From IMG/VR virus record IMGVR_UViG_3300034062_004519, positions 1 to 29,966 of that record: a stretch of 29,966 nucleotides of DNA, one strand, 5' to 3'. This stretch comes from a virus. A model generated the notes under the pieces. It was not told the origin of the DNA, made no database searches, and saw nothing but the letters and a program-made list of their open reading frames with translations. The number at the start of each line of letters is the position of its first letter. Within the stretch, counting starts at the first letter, position 1. Position numbers and translations under genes: made by a program. Of the stretch, positions 2,861 to 29,966 are shown in pieces.

Positions 2861-5623
2861 CTATGCCACTAAATTAGTTACCTTTGATACATACTGCCTA
2901 GTTTCTTTAGGCACCCTTACTTCATTAAGAATGTTAGGCCAAGTTACCCTCTTGCCAGCAGCTCTAACCTTTCTAATAGCCCTATCAATATTACCTGGCC
3001 CCCAGTTATACGCAGCTAGCGCAATCTCTTGGCTATCATACTTATTTAACATTCGCTGCAAATATCTGCTACCACCTTCTACGTTCTGTTCAGGATTCTT
3101 AGGGTTTACGCCTAACTCTTTAGCTGTAGCAGGCATAAGCTGCATCAAACCTGTAGCTCCTTTAGGGCTAACAGCTTCTTGCTTGCCGCCTGACTCTACT
3201 TTCATTACAGCCTTAACAAGGCTAGCTGGCGCATACTCTTCACCCGTAGGGATGCTGATGTTTTGCTTGCCTATTTTAACTGATTCTTTTGGCTCAATCT
3301 CTTGCGTCATTTGCTGCAAAGATTTTAGCTCAGCTTGAAGCTCAACTAATTCTGGATCTGATTCTATTATTGCAGTAGAAGTAGCTTCTGGCTTAATGGG
3401 TTCTGGTACCGAAGGCTCTACAGCAGATTCTTGAGCTACTTTAGAAGAAATATATCCAGAGCGTAATAGTTTTTCTTTGGTTGCTTCTGGAATTATTTTA
3501 AATTCTTCTGGTGTTATTTTCGCAAGAGCTTGAGGGTTTGTTTTTAACAATCTTTCATAAGCCATGTTTGCTGGCTCAGCTATTTTGGGATTTAAAATAG
3601 CTAATTGATCGCCGCCAAAAGCCTGTCTAAAATCATCGCGTTTATAAAATTGATCTTTTAATGTTTCGTAAATTTTGCGATCTATTTTGCTAGTTTTTTC
3701 AGACCAAATTGAAGCATTGTTTTTCTTTTCTACTTTAGCTGCGTAACTATCTGCGGCTTTTTTAAAAGCGTTTTTTACCCAATTTGTTTCATCTATAATG
3801 TTTATTGCATCAATTCCGGCATCTACTAATTTTTGTTTAAACGCCAATTTTTCTTTTAATACGTTTTTAGCACTTTTAGATGTAATAATTTTTCCTGCTT
3901 TAGTTTCTGCATGGGCGGTCATTCCAGGCTCGTAAAATAATCCGTTAGTAATTTCGCCTGGTTGTAAATTTAATTTTTTTTCTAATCGGTCTAAATCTTT
4001 AAAAGATTTAATGTTTACTATTTTAGCTTCTGGTTTTAAATAAACCGGAACTTGTTTATTTAATTCCCACATTCTACCTTCTGCTGTTTTTTCTGGATCA
4101 AACCACCAAGTATTTCGTTTGGCTGCATAAATAGTACCTGGCCCCAACACTGAATATCTTACAGTTTTTGGTATAAAACCGCCGTAACCCTCAATGGCTT
4201 TTATTCCAGCCTCATCTGTTCCATGGACAAACGGCTGCGCTGCGGCAAATTCTTCTTTGCTCATTAAAGACGTGGCTGCCTTAGCTACGTCCTCTGTTGT
4301 TGCATTTGGAGATAATGCTTTTCCTATTTTAGTTAAAGATTTACCAACAAGGTTTTGCCCTTTAGGGGTAGACAAAGCTCGTAAGGTAAGAGCACCTAAA
4401 ACGCCCGCACTAACATTACCGGCAGCGGTACCAAGAATAGCCCCACCTGCAAGCCCTGCTCCACCAGTAGTGTTAAGCAACTGCTGTACTTTGCCGATGT
4501 CATAATCAGCGCCAGTAGCCTTAAAGCCTCTTTCAATAATAGGACTAACTACAATCAAGTCCTGTTTTTGCTTGTTCAGGTCTTTTACTTCAGGCGCATA
4601 CTTTTCAATATGCCCTTTCATATCCCTGTAAAGACTACGCCAAAACCCAGGGTCAGATTGAGGGGAATTTTTCCAATTCTCACCAATAATCTTTTTCTGC
4701 TGATTCAAGTATACAAGACTTCCCTTGCCCTCTCGACGCAAAGCATCTTGCAAGCTAATAACTTCGTTTAGGTATTTATCAACATCGTTAGCCGCTATGT
4801 TTTTAGAAACATACTCAAGCGTTTTATCAAACGAAGGTGAAGGAACTGGCCCTACTTTAGCTTCTGTTCCTTTTAGAACAGATTGAATTGAATCTTCTGC
4901 TGCTTCCTTAGCGGCTTGTAGCTTTGGATACATAGACTCAGGATCTATGCTTTTACCAAGAGTGCCTTTCTCAATAAGATTATCAAAGCTCTTTTTAAGT
5001 TGAGTTGTAGTATCGCCTTCTACTGTTTCAATAATAGCGTTTTTAGCAAGCTTGTAATCAGAAGCCCTTGCGCCCCTAGCCTTACGCTGTAAGCCCATAC
5101 CAACATCTTCTAGCGATGGGGCAATAGCCGATGCAACCTTTGCAGCTCCGCTAACGACAGCAGGAGCAGCCAGCGCTCCTACTAATCCAGCATAAGGCGA
5201 CTCTGGCATAGCTTTTTGAGCTGCTTCGCTACCAAGGTATGCAGCTAATCCTGTACCAGCTTGGCTAAGTAGCTTAGCTTTCGATAATGGCGAAGGAGTT
5301 AAAAAGCTTACAGCCTCCTGCATAGCCGTATCTGGTCTAACACCAAGAGTAGGCGCTGCGGCTTCTGCTCCTGCGCTAAGTAGTTTGCTTAATCCAAAAG
5401 TCTCTACAGGAGCGCCTGCGTACTCTAGCCCCTTTACTACAGGGTATGACAATACATCAGCTAATCCAGCACCAGCTTTAGCAACGCCAGTAGGAATATC
5501 AAATGCAAGCTGACGCAATCCATAACCAGTAGGTTCTGTTGCCGTAGGCGCTACAGCAGATTCGTTTATTGCACTTTGTAATGCAGCAAGTTCAGCTTGT
5601 AATGCTTGCAACTCTGGATCCAT
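2861..5623 (-). CDS. Ejection (internal virion) protein with C-terminal lytic transglycosylase and possible ART-like insert
   Basis: This 920-residue multidomain protein has the following order. Residues 1-20 are a short coiled coil. About 40-170 is Ala/Gly-rich hydrophobic helix of the membrane-active type. About 190-365 is charged helix. About 383-413 is a glycine-zipper segment. Residues 463-620 are a separate globular region with HGT (467-469), GPGTIYAA (494-501) and INIIDETNW (607-615), resembling an ADP-ribosyltransferase H-Y-E pattern. A further globular part reaches about 725. Residues 797-920 are a soluble lytic transglycosylase domain with catalytic Glu810 (VESGG), GLMQLMP and AAYNWGPG. 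The last domain would cleave the glycan chain of peptidoglycan during DNA entry, as transglycosylases in virion proteins of other phages do. Bases 3460-4180 are much richer in A/T than the rest of the gene. The start ATG overlaps the upstream stop region. Confidence 0.85.
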   Translation of the reverse strand: MDPELQALQAELAALQSAINESAVAPTATEPTGYGLRQLAFDIPTGVAKAGAGLADVLSYPVVKGLEYAGAPVETFGLSKLLSAGAEAAAPTLGVRPDTAMQEAVSFLTPSPLSKAKLLSQAGTGLAAYLGSEAAQKAMPESPYAGLVGALAAPAVVSGAAKVASAIAPSLEDVGMGLQRKARGARASDYKLAKNAIIETVEGDTTTQLKKSFDNLIEKGTLGKSIDPESMYPKLQAAKEAAEDSIQSVLKGTEAKVGPVPSPSFDKTLEYVSKNIAANDVDKYLNEVISLQDALRREGKGSLVYLNQQKKIIGENWKNSPQSDPGFWRSLYRDMKGHIEKYAPEVKDLNKQKQDLIVVSPIIERGFKATGADYDIGKVQQLLNTTGGAGLAGGAILGTAAGNVSAGVLGALTLRALSTPKGQNLVGKSLTKIGKALSPNATTEDVAKAATSLMSKEEFAAAQPFVHGTDEAGIKAIEGYGGFIPKTVRYSVLGPGTIYAAKRNTWWFDPEKTAEGRMWELNKQVPVYLKPEAKIVNIKSFKDLDRLEKKLNLQPGEITNGLFYEPGMTAHAETKAGKIITSKSAKNVLKEKLAFKQKLVDAGIDAINIIDETNWVKNAFKKAADSYAAKVEKKNNASIWSEKTSKIDRKIYETLKDQFYKRDDFRQAFGGDQLAILNPKIAEPANMAYERLLKTNPQALAKITPEEFKIIPEATKEKLLRSGYISSKVAQESAVEPSVPEPIKPEATSTAIIESDPELVELQAELKSLQQMTQEIEPKESVKIGKQNISIPTGEEYAPASLVKAVMKVESGGKQEAVSPKGATGLMQLMPATAKELGVNPKNPEQNVEGGSRYLQRMLNKYDSQEIALAAYNWGPGNIDRAIRKVRAAGKRVTWPNILNEVRVPKETRQYVSKVTNLVA
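3460..4180. other. Low-GC island inside the ejection protein gene
   Basis: Hand counts of individual 60-base lines give about 18-33% G+C (lines at 3541, 3661, 3721, 3781, 3841, 3961). A line at 5101 in the same gene gives about 53%. The shift covers roughly residues 480-720, that is, the ART-like region and the segment after it. The flanking glycine-zipper and transglycosylase parts look like the rest of the phage. This suggests that the middle of the protein was acquired separately. Confidence 0.6.
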
Positions 5624-22048: not shown

Positions 22049-24619
22049 TTAATCCTCATCTTCTTCATCAGCATCATTTACTTCAATACCCGATAGGTTG
22101 CCCATCTCATCATTTATCATGCTGGCAACTCGCTTGCCTCGCTTTGGTATGATGTTGTTAATAACTACTGGTTGCTGAGTAGCGGTGCTAGTTTCTTTAG
22201 GAGTAGCTACTTGTTCCATTTGCAAGCGAACTCGCTCTAGTGCAGCATCAGATGCTAACCTGCGTTCTTCCATTAGCTTTTCCGATTCAGATAAGCGTAT
22301 CCGCATGTTTTCAAGTTCTAATTTTTGTATCTCTAAGATATGCGCCATTTGGCTAGTTTCTTGCTTGATAAGGTTTTTATCAGCTTCAGTCTGAGCGGAA
22401 GACTGGACCTTTAGCATATCAACCTGCACGGCCTGTGCTTTGATTTGCATATCTTGCTGTTCTAAAGCTAGACGTTGCTGCTCTAAGTATTCTTTAAACT
22501 GCTGCTCTTGCACACGGAGCTGAGCTTCTAGCTGGTCACGCTGCATCTTAAGCTGCTGGTCTTGGTAGGCTAACTGATTCTTAACAGCTTTGTCCTGCAT
22601 TTCCATCTGAGTAGCTTGCAGCCTAGCTTGCGACTCCACCTGAGCAATTTGCATCCTGCCTTGTATCTCAAGCGTCTTGGGGTCTGGTGGTGGCGGTTGT
22701 TTAGCGGCCTCTTCTTTTGCCTTGGCAATAGCTTCAATCTCTTTGAATGCCTTGCTGAATAGTCCATCAATCTCTTTCCCGCCCTTAAAGCGTTTAATAA
22801 AGTTTTGAAAGAGGGAGAGGCTAAATTGAGCTAGGGGAGGGTACTGTTCAATAAGTCCCTTCATCTGCTCAAAGAAGCCTCCAGCAGCTTGGATAAGCAT
22901 AGTGCCTTCCTGCTGCTGTTGTGCTTGGTCTATTGCGACCATAGAGTCTGAAGCAATTTCAATGCGATAGTTACGTTTTGTACTATCTCTAAATATTGCA
23001 ATAATCTGTTGCTTCATTTCGTCGATTAGTTGCAACGGGTCGGGCTGTGGGGGTGCCATTGGTGGCATACCTAACTCACCTGGTGGTACACCTTCTGGAC
23101 TAGGAGGTGGCGGGGGAGGTGGTGGTATATAGATAGTTGGCTCTATAAGAGCGTCAGCATCTGCGGTCTCCATGATGCGTTCTGGGTCAAACTGCTCCGC
23201 AATAATCGTGCCAAGATGCATAATTGCATCAGAAATAAATTTGCTAAACATGTTTTGGCGTACGATTAGGCCAAGGCTGGACCATTGATTTTCTAGCCTA
23301 TTAGCTGTAGCAGACTTGTACTGCTCTGAAGTGCCTCTTAATAGGTCAGATACTTTTAGAGTCTCGTAGAGCTGCTGTAAAGCGTTCTGCCTATTTTCTT
23401 GTAGCGTGTTTAGCACGTTTACAAACTGTTCTACGGGTAAGAATTCCATTCCACCTTGTAGTCCGCCCCTACCTTTGTTAGCGGTCCAGCCAGTAACACT
23501 AATACCTTTAAGATCATCCTGGAAGAGCTGCTCAAGGTAATCGCCCATTGCAGCATCGTAGAGAAAGTTAGGTCGTATTGCTTGAGTTAGGGCATGGATA
23601 CGAGTTGTGAGACGTTCTACCTCTAGTATCTGGTCTTTAGCGTGAGCGTAGTCTGACGTTGGGACAATGCTTGTAGGGTCTTGAGTCTGACGAATAACAG
23701 CGCAAGGATAAAAGCCCTCAAATTTAATTGGTGGCTCTGTCTCTTCTATAATTTCGCCATCAAAGCCAAGCTGTAGCCAATATACTTTGTTAGTAGCCTC
23801 GCACCAGATTTCCCAAACCTCGGCCTTACCTTCTAGTTTGTTTCCGTCTTTGCTGGCCTCTCGCTTTCTAATTTCTGGGACGCTGTCATAGCTAAGTTTA
23901 TCTGCTTTTTCTTCGCCAAATAGTGCCGTTGCTTGGTCCCTATCCAGGTAGGCTCTTTTAGCTTGCCATTCGATTTCTGACTCGTTTCTAGCATCTGAAG
24001 CACGGTAATCTGAGAATTGGACAACCTCAAGTATAGCTTTTTCGCTAACTTTACGCTCGACCTCAACAGACGATATAAAAATACCAGAGCTAGCCTCTTG
24101 CAAACTTTCCGTATCGCCATCATAAGGGCTACCATCCCCTTGAATAAAGTTACCGTTAGGGTCTCGAATGACCGCAATCTCTTGAAAAACCTTCTCAAAT
24201 TTAGGCTCGTACCTAGCCCAAAGAACCGCTTGGCCTGTTAAAAGAAACTGTAATGCTGCATTGTAGCCGACCTTATCAAAGCTAAAATGGCAATCCATTG
24301 AATACTGAGTATTACGCTCGAGAATGACGCTACCTAGCTCATAAGGTAGCCCGCCAGCACGTTTACGGAGGTTTACCTCAGCTTTTGGCGTAGAGCTGTA
24401 ATAGGCAGGTAGTAATGTGTTTATGCAGTACCACCACACGTTTAAGCGGCGTGGAGCATCTCGTAAGGTATCAACTTCCTTGTAGGCGTTAAATACCTTT
24501 ATTGACTCATCTGCTGTTTTGATGAACTTTTCGTAGCGAGTATTAGCCTGATCTATCTGTTTTTTCCACCAAGTAGAGGAGTATTTCTTTATTAATGGCC
24601 TTGGTGTTTTTTGCTTCAT
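22049..24619 (-). CDS. Portal protein with long C-terminal coiled coil
   Basis: The 856-residue protein lies directly after the terminase large subunit (four-base ATGA overlap), the canonical portal position. The N-terminal half has the usual helical and wing features: YSSTWWKKQIDQANTRYEKF, LRDAPRRLNVWWYCINTLLPAYY, the TPKAEV motif, YNAALQFLLTGQAVLWARYEP, PCAVIRQTQDPTSIVPTSDY, a helix with LRGTSEQYKSATANRLENQW, and IEIASDSM. Near residue 495 there is a run of eight prolines and a Pro-rich hinge. From about 650 to 800 there is an Gln/Glu coiled coil with repeats of the type QMEMQDKAVKNQLAYQDQQLKMQRDQ, then an acidic end (DDADEEDED-like). P22 portal has 725 residues with a helical barrel; the coil here may play the same part. 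Confidence 0.8.
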   Translation of the reverse strand: MKQKTPRPLIKKYSSTWWKKQIDQANTRYEKFIKTADESIKVFNAYKEVDTLRDAPRRLNVWWYCINTLLPAYYSSTPKAEVNLRKRAGGLPYELGSVILERNTQYSMDCHFSFDKVGYNAALQFLLTGQAVLWARYEPKFEKVFQEIAVIRDPNGNFIQGDGSPYDGDTESLQEASSGIFISSVEVERKVSEKAILEVVQFSDYRASDARNESEIEWQAKRAYLDRDQATALFGEEKADKLSYDSVPEIRKREASKDGNKLEGKAEVWEIWCEATNKVYWLQLGFDGEIIEETEPPIKFEGFYPCAVIRQTQDPTSIVPTSDYAHAKDQILEVERLTTRIHALTQAIRPNFLYDAAMGDYLEQLFQDDLKGISVTGWTANKGRGGLQGGMEFLPVEQFVNVLNTLQENRQNALQQLYETLKVSDLLRGTSEQYKSATANRLENQWSSLGLIVRQNMFSKFISDAIMHLGTIIAEQFDPERIMETADADALIEPTIYIPPPPPPPPSPEGVPPGELGMPPMAPPQPDPLQLIDEMKQQIIAIFRDSTKRNYRIEIASDSMVAIDQAQQQQEGTMLIQAAGGFFEQMKGLIEQYPPLAQFSLSLFQNFIKRFKGGKEIDGLFSKAFKEIEAIAKAKEEAAKQPPPPDPKTLEIQGRMQIAQVESQARLQATQMEMQDKAVKNQLAYQDQQLKMQRDQLEAQLRVQEQQFKEYLEQQRLALEQQDMQIKAQAVQVDMLKVQSSAQTEADKNLIKQETSQMAHILEIQKLELENMRIRLSESEKLMEERRLASDAALERVRLQMEQVATPKETSTATQQPVVINNIIPKRGKRVASMINDEMGNLSGIEVNDADEEDED

Positions 24620-26025
24620 ATTTGCGGCCTTTTAGCTCGTGCTCGTATTTTAGATATATAACTTTGCAGCTTAATCATACCGGAATGTAACATCTGCTCC
24701 GGCTCCTCCCATTTAGAATCAATTAACCTTGCCTTACACAAATAGCGCAAAGCATCGACAGCGTGGTCGTTACCCCTAGTATCCAAATCTTCTGGTTTTT
24801 GTTTGTCTATACTCATGGATGGTAAGGTTTCCAGCAAGTAAGGGCAAGTGGCAAAAATATAGATTAGCGGTGGGCTGGCTACTAACCGTTGCCGTATCTG
24901 CGACCATCCGGAGATACGGTCGTTATCGGCTTGTCTAAAACTAGGATGCTTATACTTAACAAAAATAGAATTAAACTGGTCGTTAATAGTAGGACCACCT
25001 TGATTGTTAAAGATACTAGGGTCAGCAACTGAGATAGGGTTTTCATTTAGTGAAAGGGAAGCGATTCGTTCTGCTTGAGTAATGTTATCAACTCCTTTAC
25101 CCCATAATTCTCGGTAGATGATGACTGATCCTTTAGGGTACGGTACTTCCTTACCATCATCAGTACGTCCAGAACTAACAGCACCCCAGATAGCAGCAAA
25201 AGGGCTGTGATAACCCCAATCATAGCCCAAATAACGAGGCCAATGCTTGGGAACATTAAAAGGACTAATGATATGTTTAGAGCTAAACTCAGGAAAGTAA
25301 CTTCCTTCATGGATTTCAAAATCTCCCTCTAGCCAGGCCCGTACTAACTCAGGGCTACCGACCATGTGTAGGCGGTTAATATACTCAGGGTCTCTAGCTA
25401 ACAGTATCTGATTATCCGTAACTCTACTAGGTATATAAATATAATCAAAGCTAGCGCCATTAGGGAGCTCTTTTTTAAGCAGCTTCATCCCTTTAGGTGC
25501 CGGCTTAATAAACAAAGCTTTTAACCAGCCATGCCCGATACCACCAGGGTTAAACGTAAGGATGATTTGACCGCCACCTTTGCCTCGTAGAGCTCCAAAT
25601 AGCTTCCAGATAGGGGAAGGGTCAGCATAGTTACCCGCCTCCTCTATAGCGCAATCTGAGAGGTTCTGGCCCTGATACTTTTCAGCATCAGCATCATTAG
25701 CTAGAGGTCTAAAACGTAAGCGACCACCCGATAGGAAGGTAAACTGCTTTTTCTGGTCTTGCCAATGCGCTTTAAGGGGTAAGTAAATCTGCTTGGCACG
25801 TTCAATAAGGTCATCAGCCTGAGGCAATTCTTTACGAAAAAAGATAGCATTAAAATCAGCCCCTAACTGTTCCTGCTTAATTGCAAACTTACCTAATACG
25901 CCGTCAGTCTTACCTCCACCTCGTGCGCCGCCATAACCTACTAGCGTAATAGGGCAGTTTACCAAGGCTTCCTGAGGCCCCGATTGAGGCTGCCATACTA
26001 CGTTTACGTCTAAGCTTTCCGACAT
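24616..26025 (-). CDS. terL: Terminase large subunit
   Basis: This 469-residue packaging motor has both activities visible. The ATPase has a Walker A at 32-40 (GGARGGGKT), a Walker B at 122-131 (LSDCAIEEAG, with Glu129/Glu128 as candidate base) and a coupling motif LTFNPGG at 156-162. The RNase H-like nuclease has YLGYDWGYHSPFAAIW with Asp269, VADPS with Asp335, and NDHAVDALRY with Asp420/Asp424 as likely metal ligands. It binds the portal and pumps DNA into the capsid, cutting concatemers. Length and motif order are normal for the family. The start overlaps the upstream DUF551-like gene by 16 bases and the end overlaps the portal start. Confidence 0.93.
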   Translation of the reverse strand: MSESLDVNVVWQPQSGPQEALVNCPITLVGYGGARGGGKTDGVLGKFAIKQEQLGADFNAIFFRKELPQADDLIERAKQIYLPLKAHWQDQKKQFTFLSGGRLRFRPLANDADAEKYQGQNLSDCAIEEAGNYADPSPIWKLFGALRGKGGGQIILTFNPGGIGHGWLKALFIKPAPKGMKLLKKELPNGASFDYIYIPSRVTDNQILLARDPEYINRLHMVGSPELVRAWLEGDFEIHEGSYFPEFSSKHIISPFNVPKHWPRYLGYDWGYHSPFAAIWGAVSSGRTDDGKEVPYPKGSVIIYRELWGKGVDNITQAERIASLSLNENPISVADPSIFNNQGGPTINDQFNSIFVKYKHPSFRQADNDRISGWSQIRQRLVASPPLIYIFATCPYLLETLPSMSIDKQKPEDLDTRGNDHAVDALRYLCKARLIDSKWEEPEQMLHSGMIKLQSYISKIRARAKRPQI

Positions 26026-28275: not shown

Positions 28276-28545
28276 ATGAGGATAGGCAAAAATACTTACA
28301 AAGGCATAAAAATAATCTCTGATTATGGCAACTCTATAACATTCACAACTCAATCAAGTGGTAGAATATTCGAGGCTAAGTGGGGGCGGGATGGAAGCGG
28401 GAATAATATTTGGGTTGTGTCACTATCTAAGCTTGATCCCTTGCGCAACGATCGCAACGATCGCATGCGACACTGGACGGAGTATTTCCCGCGACAAAAC
28501 AACAATAACGAGATATGGGCTTTTTTTGCTAGTAGTATTAGCTAA
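28276..28545 (+). CDS. Small early protein, unknown
   Basis: From the ATG at 28276 the product has 89 residues and starts MRIGKNTYKGIKIISDYG. An ATG at 28264 is in frame, but GGAGAG at 28265-28270 is placed to serve 28276, and the layout GGAGAG-atat-ATGAG matches the other rightward genes. The protein is beta-like in the first part (TYKGIKIISDYGNSITFTT, RIFEAKWG, NNIWVVSLSKL). A charged LRNDRNDRMRHW segment follows, produced by a short tandem DNA repeat. A Gln/Asn-rich QNNNNE sits near the end. No family is recognised. The structured leader just upstream suggests regulation of its translation. Confidence 0.55.
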   Translation: MRIGKNTYKGIKIISDYGNSITFTTQSSGRIFEAKWGRDGSGNNIWVVSLSKLDPLRNDRNDRMRHWTEYFPRQNNNNEIWAFFASSIS

Positions 28546-29655: not shown

Positions 29656-29699
29656 TACCCCTAGGTTGCGATATCTAATCCAGCCTAGGGGTACCCCTA
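29656..29699. terminator. Dyad between convergent genes, possible bidirectional terminator
   Basis: TACCCCTAGG (29656-29665) pairs with CCTAGGGGTA (29684-29693) across an 18-base loop. A 14-base palindrome TAGGGGTACCCCTA (29686-29699) overlaps the right arm, so two foldings compete. It lies between the stops of the last rightward gene and the partial leftward gene, where a terminator is expected. There is no clear T-run on either side. Confidence 0.45.
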
Positions 29700-29741: not shown

Positions 29742-29966
29742 TTATCGGCATCTTCGCCTAACCATCGCTTTTCTTTCCTCATTCCATTCCATAGTATACT
29801 GATCTAACTGGTTACTAGACTGATCTAGTTTATCTAGTTTTAGACCTAGATTTAGTTTAGATAGATCTAGATCTAGGTAATTAGATCTAGGTTTATTAGA
29901 TCTAGGTAGTTGCTCATTTTGAGCACCTTCAAGCTGCTCATTTTGAGCACCAATCGAGTTTTGATA
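29742..29966 (-). CDS. C-terminal part of a leftward gene with repeat-built low-complexity tail (partial)
   Basis: The minus strand is open from the right edge to TAA at 29742-29744, giving 74 residues. They contain a duplicated GAQNEQL (GAQNEQLEGAQNEQL), a duplicated PRSN (LPRSNKPRSN), a Leu/Asp/Lys stretch (YLDLDLSKLNLGLKLDKLD) and end EERKAMVRRRCR. Eight CTAG tetranucleotides occur in this stretch, yet none places TAG in this frame, which supports coding. The start lies outside the window. GAQNEQL-type repeats occur in linkers of HTH-containing phage replication initiators, as I recall, so a replication protein is a reasonable but unproven guess. Confidence 0.45.
   Translation of the reverse strand, partial: YQNSIGAQNEQLEGAQNEQLPRSNKPRSNYLDLDLSKLNLGLKLDKLDQSSNQLDQYTMEWNEERKAMVRRRCR
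29862..29907. repeat. Iteron-like array AGATCTAGGT x3
   Basis: AGATCTAGGT occurs at 29869-29878, 29883-29892 and 29898-29907. Start-to-start distances are 14 and 15 bases, and a partial copy TAGATCTAG sits at 29862. The spacers are A/T only. The array lies inside the partial leftward gene. Tandem short repeats beside A/T-rich DNA are the usual layout of replication origins. Confidence 0.6.
29911..29951. repeat. Direct repeat TGCTCATTTTGAGCACC x2, each with internal dyad
   Basis: Identical 17-base copies lie at 29911-29927 and 29935-29951, 24 bases apart. Each contains the dyad TGCTCA-TTT-TGAGCA. They encode the two GAQNEQL units of the partial leftward protein and flank the iteron-like array. 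Dyads of this type are also typical protein-binding sites. Confidence 0.65.

Follow-up and report, generated by a model that had tools for sequence, protein, structure and literature searches.

What are two sets of closely spaced repeats doing inside the end of a phage gene? The question is raised by the viral-contig record IMGVR_UViG_3300034062_004519, whose 29,966 bp form the window analysed here, and in which a leftward open reading frame cut by the right edge carries both sets. An initial annotation had read the array as an origin of the lambda kind, lying towards the end of a gene for replication. Our analysis supports this proposal, because relatives of the gene encode a winged-helix protein that matches replication initiators, the in-gene array is conserved and an A+T-rich stretch lies next to it, as in lambda O. 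Judged from sequence comparison, the phage's own gene for its initiator is highly likely to contain a theta replication origin of the lambda type, of which the array forms the 3′ half. Among intragenic origins of this type it very probably represents a new variant, with an unusually small initiator and with sites that appear to have diversified among related uncultured phages.

The frame runs without interruption from 29966 to its stop codon at 29742–29744 and holds 74 codons; its 5′ end lies off the contig. Together with full-length relatives, this identifies 29742–29966 (minus strand) as the 3′ part of an O-like winged-helix initiator gene. Exact copies of AGATCTAGGT lie at 29869, 29883 and 29898 (spacings 14 and 15 bp) and of TGCTCATTTTGAGCACC at 29911 and 29935 (spacing 24 bp), and the window contains no other copy of either. 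These positions match the three copies at 14–15-base spacing and the two 17-base copies of the initial annotation. Exact 15-mer repeats 15–60 bp apart were seen three times and triple 10-mers within 60 bp twice, compared to none of either in 100 dinucleotide-preserving shuffles of the window. The accompanying statement that the periods are not all multiples of three holds for the 14/15-bp spacing, which breaks the codon period, but not for the iteron spacing of 24 bp. Although the repeats had been treated as one array, they appear to be two elements, one made of palindromic sites for the initiator and the other of A+T-rich repeats for unwinding.

With the 74-residue fragment as query, a scan of viral contigs returned three relatives. 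The loci L003 and L004 hold the complete gene, encoding 177 residues in each case with 80% identity between them; the first 41–42 residues of the window fragment are 81% identical to L003 and 80% to L004. Further homologues came from a viral-contig scan with the window terminase, followed by a profile search over the retrieved loci. About two dozen homologues lie upstream of terminase, at the syntenic place. They are ~155–215 residues long: a winged helix at the N-terminus is followed by a low-complexity linker that bears the repeats and by a short C-terminal tail, with the iterons located between the N-terminal domain and the tail. PHROG 270, 'replication initiation protein', is matched by all 22 aligned full-length relatives, and PHROG 678 (O-like) and PHROG 186 (DnaD-like) by 20 each; the Pfam matches of the relatives are the winged-helix profiles HTH_36 and DnaD_N. 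AlphaFold predicts the winged helix with confidence at residues ~20–95, and gives low confidence over the repeat-encoded linker. The expectation that the rest of the gene would encode a helix-turn-helix or initiator domain is therefore borne out by the relatives, whose N-terminal DNA-binding domain has its best phage-family matches among replication initiators and O-like proteins. The cut window frame gave no match to Pfam or PHROGs, and megablast of phage records with the window and tblastn of them with the L003 protein found nothing; a PDB sequence search yielded nothing useful and a scan of genome contigs found no relatives. Directly upstream of the initiator start codon, L003 (2974–3014) and L004 (5645–5680) carry a G+C stem-loop (cgcccc...gggcg and ccacct...aggtgg). 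Changes in its stem are compensated and its loop is alike in the two (accggtcaaagta and accggctaaagta); it may act as an attenuator or as a regulatory RNA element.

The 17-mer, which reads GGTGCTCAAAATGAGCA on the coding strand, holds a perfect 6+3+6 palindrome that the initial annotation did not note. The palindromic window iteron, TGCTCAAAATGAGCA, is present in two identical copies on the minus strand, at 29935–29951 (core 29935–29949) and, closest to the A+T region, at 29911–29927 (core 29911–29925). L003 and L004 have three copies, spaced by 33 and 24 bp, of which the window shows the 24-bp pair; from the 33-bp spacing, a third window iteron would be expected at ~29968, just past the edge. 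Beyond L003, L004 and L005, an exact 17-mer scan of viral contigs found only chance matches in unrelated sequence. Every relative carries an equivalent array at the same place, and repeats of the putative initiator-binding type lie within the initiator gene in the window and in its relatives. Palindromic copies number roughly 2 to 6 in each gene. The palindromes are perfect 6+3+6 in the window, L003, L004, L005, L039, L031, L020, L082, L033, L037, L030 and L043, and imperfect in L016 and L063. In these DIVERSIFYING palindromes, the arms vary by lineage around an A-rich centre (TGCTCA, TGTCCA, GGATCA, TGTTCA, GGTTCA, GTATCA, CGGCCA and others; CCCTC in lambda); the L039-type sites are TGTCCAAAATGGACA.

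We compared each homologue to 300 versions of itself in which codons had been swapped for synonymous ones, a test free of the bias that comes from choosing sites by palindromy. Palindrome counts were clearly in excess in the window, L003, L004, L039, L031, L020, L082, L030, L033 and L043, but not in every lineage. The arms also covary: over ten lineages, 58 of 60 paired arm cells are complementary, compared to at most 47 in 20000 shuffles. Relatives with at least 66% winged-helix identity have all arm bases identical. Between L003/L004 and L039 (60–61% winged-helix identity), two arm positions differ, and both sides of the palindrome have changed. The repeats do not vary freely in relatives, which the initial annotation had named as a finding that would speak against an origin: the array is always at the same place and its palindromy is mostly kept despite the arm changes.

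The second element consists of ACCTAGATCT copies, 14–15 bp apart, in the A+T-rich DNA that adjoins the iterons. The repeat ACCTAGATCTA is found on the minus strand at 29897–29907 (copy 1), 29882–29892 (copy 2) and 29868–29878 (copy 3, in a different frame from the other two: LDL, not PRS), and its spacings of 15 and 14 bp are alike in the window, L003, L004 and L005. Within the gene fragment, A+T content peaks over the 60 bp at 29823–29882 (minus strand, 73% A+T), a putative unwinding region. In the relatives, the 60 bp of each gene that are richest in A+T lie directly 3′ of the iterons and mostly reach or exceed the 98th percentile of the locus. Lambda O, our control (record NC_001416; O at 38686–39585, annotated iterons at 39034–39118), behaves alike; this record and the cited papers are the basis of everything said here about lambda. 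Another lambdoid phage O control matched phage 21 at 100% and played no part in the inferences. In many relatives the A+T tract is made of 13–15-bp direct repeats, such as TACTAATAAAGA-, ATACAAAGAAAC- and TACTAAGATCTA-like units, in excess of what synonymous shuffling predicts. This excess is clear in L025, L024, L079, L036, L039, L037, L057, L018, L043, L063 and L052, and weak or absent in L031, L082 and L005.

Palindromes would also suit a dimeric repressor, and the best PDB fold matches of the protein are MarR-family repressors, accompanied by weak Penicillinase_R and MarR Pfam matches. A MarR-like winged-helix repressor with the palindromes as operators for its own gene or its neighbours is, however, improbable: the sites lie ~290–390 bp inside the gene and not at a promoter, an A+T-rich 13–15-mer array comes next, as at origins, all 22 members match replication-initiator PHROGs, and lambda O, put through the same tests, looks alike. 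A further fold match, to the plasmid centromere binder AspA/pNOB8, brings up a partition site, in which the array would be a centromere bound by the protein to segregate a plasmid-like prophage. We consider this very unlikely, since no ParA-type ATPase (PF13614) was found in ten records including the window, and the A+T-rich repeats and the replication-type PHROG matches fit an origin better.

The same synonymous shuffles reveal constraint on the DNA itself. In lambda O and in every homologue, repeated 9-mers outnumber those of all 300 shuffles, with a similar excess of repeats shared between reading frames. The window word CCTAGATCT is translated as Pro-Arg-Ser twice and as Leu-Asp-Leu once. 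The L031 iteron, GGGATCAAAATGATCC, is read in two frames, as GIKMIP and RDQNDP, and within one gene the iterons of L039 (VSKMDN and GVQNGQ) and L033 (LFKTN and AVQNEQ) are as well. The DNA is constrained beyond the protein sequence, which confirms the earlier claim that selection acts on the DNA too, and the array provides a clear example of a DNA signal dictating a protein linker across reading frames. A repeat at the amino-acid level, grown by slippage or recombination and devoid of DNA function, is hardly credible: low-complexity linkers can expand and iteron spacings of 24 and 33 bp preserve the frame, but the excess over synonymous expectation in every homologue, the same DNA word in two frames within single genes and the 13- and 14-bp periods that break the codon period all argue against it.

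Several observations weigh against an intragenic origin of the lambda type. The PHROG matches are remote, the Pfam matches generic and the fold matches, headed by the repressors, generic too. The N-terminus of the window's own protein lies off the contig, and its DNA-binding domain is deduced from relatives. The repeats of the L025 group are without clear palindromy. The test for arm covariation is biased upward by sites having been chosen for palindromicity. Arm similarity tracks winged-helix similarity among close relatives only, and over the whole set the relation is not significant (719 of 2000 permutations reach it). In the window and in the related, nearly whole contig G001, GC skew goes with gene strand and lends no independent support. 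Finally, no gene for a helicase-loader partner was found: Phage_lambda_P (PF06992), IstB/DnaC-like (PF01695) and DnaB_C (PF03796) were not found in the eight to ten related records searched, several of them near full length, though the records may be incomplete.

Neither a family A polymerase nor a tyrosine integrase was found in these records, whereas a RecT annealing protein was, as were a RusA-like resolvase and a protein that is possibly clamp-like. This gene context fits dependence on the host replisome. The protein itself ends in a short tail only, in place of a P-binding C-terminal domain with a neighbouring P-like gene. Because no DnaB, P, loader or polymerase was detected, we propose that the short tail recruits host replication proteins. 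In the genome of L016, a 194-residue protein (L099:10811–11392) has a weak match (E 1.2e-4) to a family of phage DNA polymerase processivity factors, with no polymerase found; a 201-residue protein (L099:2512–3114) matches a ferredoxin PHROG of the moron/auxiliary metabolic class (E 3e-37).

The window gene is a mosaic, with a junction at 29840–29844 on the 3′ side of the A+T array. Its iteron/A+T part is 91% identical to L003/L004, while its tail and downstream flank are 86% identical to L016, whose terminase is 98% identical to that of the window but whose iterons differ. The window tail (29745–29804, minus strand) belongs to class B (DQYTMEWNEERKAMVRRRCR). Tail classes A and B are exchanged between near-identical N-termini (L036 versus L024, L025 and L079), and the same tail is found with distant N-termini (L037 and L003; L020 and L004). 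These swaps suggest that the N-terminus, iterons and A+T region seem to move as one module. A frameshift at the window C-terminus, suspected since the L003 tail is missing, was ruled out, as the tail matches L016 and others.

The gene, its domain order, the two repeat elements, the constraint on the DNA and the mosaicism can all be read from the sequences; from the analogy with lambda, we infer dimer binding, opening and helicase recruitment. The N-terminal winged helix of the initiator would bind the palindromic iterons as dimers. The resulting initiator multimer would then bend the DNA and open the adjacent A+T-rich region of 13–15-bp repeats, which it may hold as a single strand, and the short C-terminal tail would then recruit host replication proteins. 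More tentatively, and with somewhat less than even confidence, we suggest a family of minimal initiators of ~155–215 residues whose linker is dictated by their own origin. Arms and A+T 13–15-mers would diversify in this family to give many initiator-origin specificities, and an exchangeable tail would recruit the host replisome directly, without a phage loader. How a ~170-residue initiator with no visible loader recruits the host helicase is a question that this raises. The group also offers a natural series of initiator-iteron pairs, with arms changed and palindromy kept, that is suited to mapping winged-helix specificity.

In the window, the phage structural genes are on the minus strand (terminase 24616–26025, portal 22049–24619). 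To their right lie short plus-strand genes and then the convergent leftward frame. A terminator-like inverted repeat separates the convergent genes (29656–29693; 13-nt arms, 92% complementary). One short plus-strand frame contains a CGCAACGAT tandem repeat (28444–28465, 2.4 copies, period 9). The terminase genes of L003 (6342–8627) and L005 (2824–5289) have large, intein-like in-frame inserts at different sites. The L003 insert has Cys at its start and HN at its end, and in L005 an opposite-strand open frame (3329–4162) resembles an HNH homing nuclease; the window terminase is without an insert.

How does this origin compare to known systems? In lambda, O dimers bind inverted-repeat iterons inside gene O, an adjacent A+T region of ~40 bp, also inside O, opens, and the O C-terminus contacts P (PMC5043065, PMC6022878, PMC7466680). 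The locus described here shares with lambda the origin within the initiator gene, the order of N-terminal DNA-binding domain, palindromic iterons and A+T tract directly after, and an iteron design of short arms around an A-rich centre (CCCTCAAAACGAGGG in lambda). In contrast, lambda O has 299 residues, a C-terminal P-binding domain and gene P next to it, whereas the present proteins have ~155–215 residues and a short tail, and related records yielded no gene for P, a DnaC-like protein or DnaB. The same test gave no sign in lambda of the 13–15-bp direct repeats of the A+T tract (23/45; 76/200 shuffles reach). That the locus works like ori-lambda is better supported than that it is a lambda O system, because neither a P partner nor a large C-terminal domain turned up when sought.

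In O genes of the Stx phages P27 and 933W (PMC7466680), iteron number varies and alters the protein linker, as here, but their iterons are almost identical to those of lambda, whereas here the arms differ among related phages. Iteron plasmids (PMC5043065, PMC4081077) likewise have a binding-site array adjoining an A+T-rich unwinding region, and the A+T-side repeats recall the 13-mers of their unwinding elements. However, a plasmid-type origin has direct, non-palindromic iterons bound by monomers outside the gene, unlike the intragenic palindromes found here. Among isolates, Pseudanabaena phage Pam5 (ON014757; L096) has the terminase that matches best (42% identity). An unannotated Pam5 frame (34535–35338) encodes a winged-helix protein of 267 residues, contains GGTCAGAATGTGACC repeats that are read in two frames, and is probably the Pam5 initiator and origin; the record annotates another, overlapping frame (35139–35921) in its place. 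Pam5 differs in its longer protein with a larger C-terminal part, its G+C-rich genome and its lack of 13–15-bp A+T-side repeats in the same test. Taken together, these comparisons suggest that the layout of lambda O and its origin extends to uncultured, mostly environmental phages distant from lambda.
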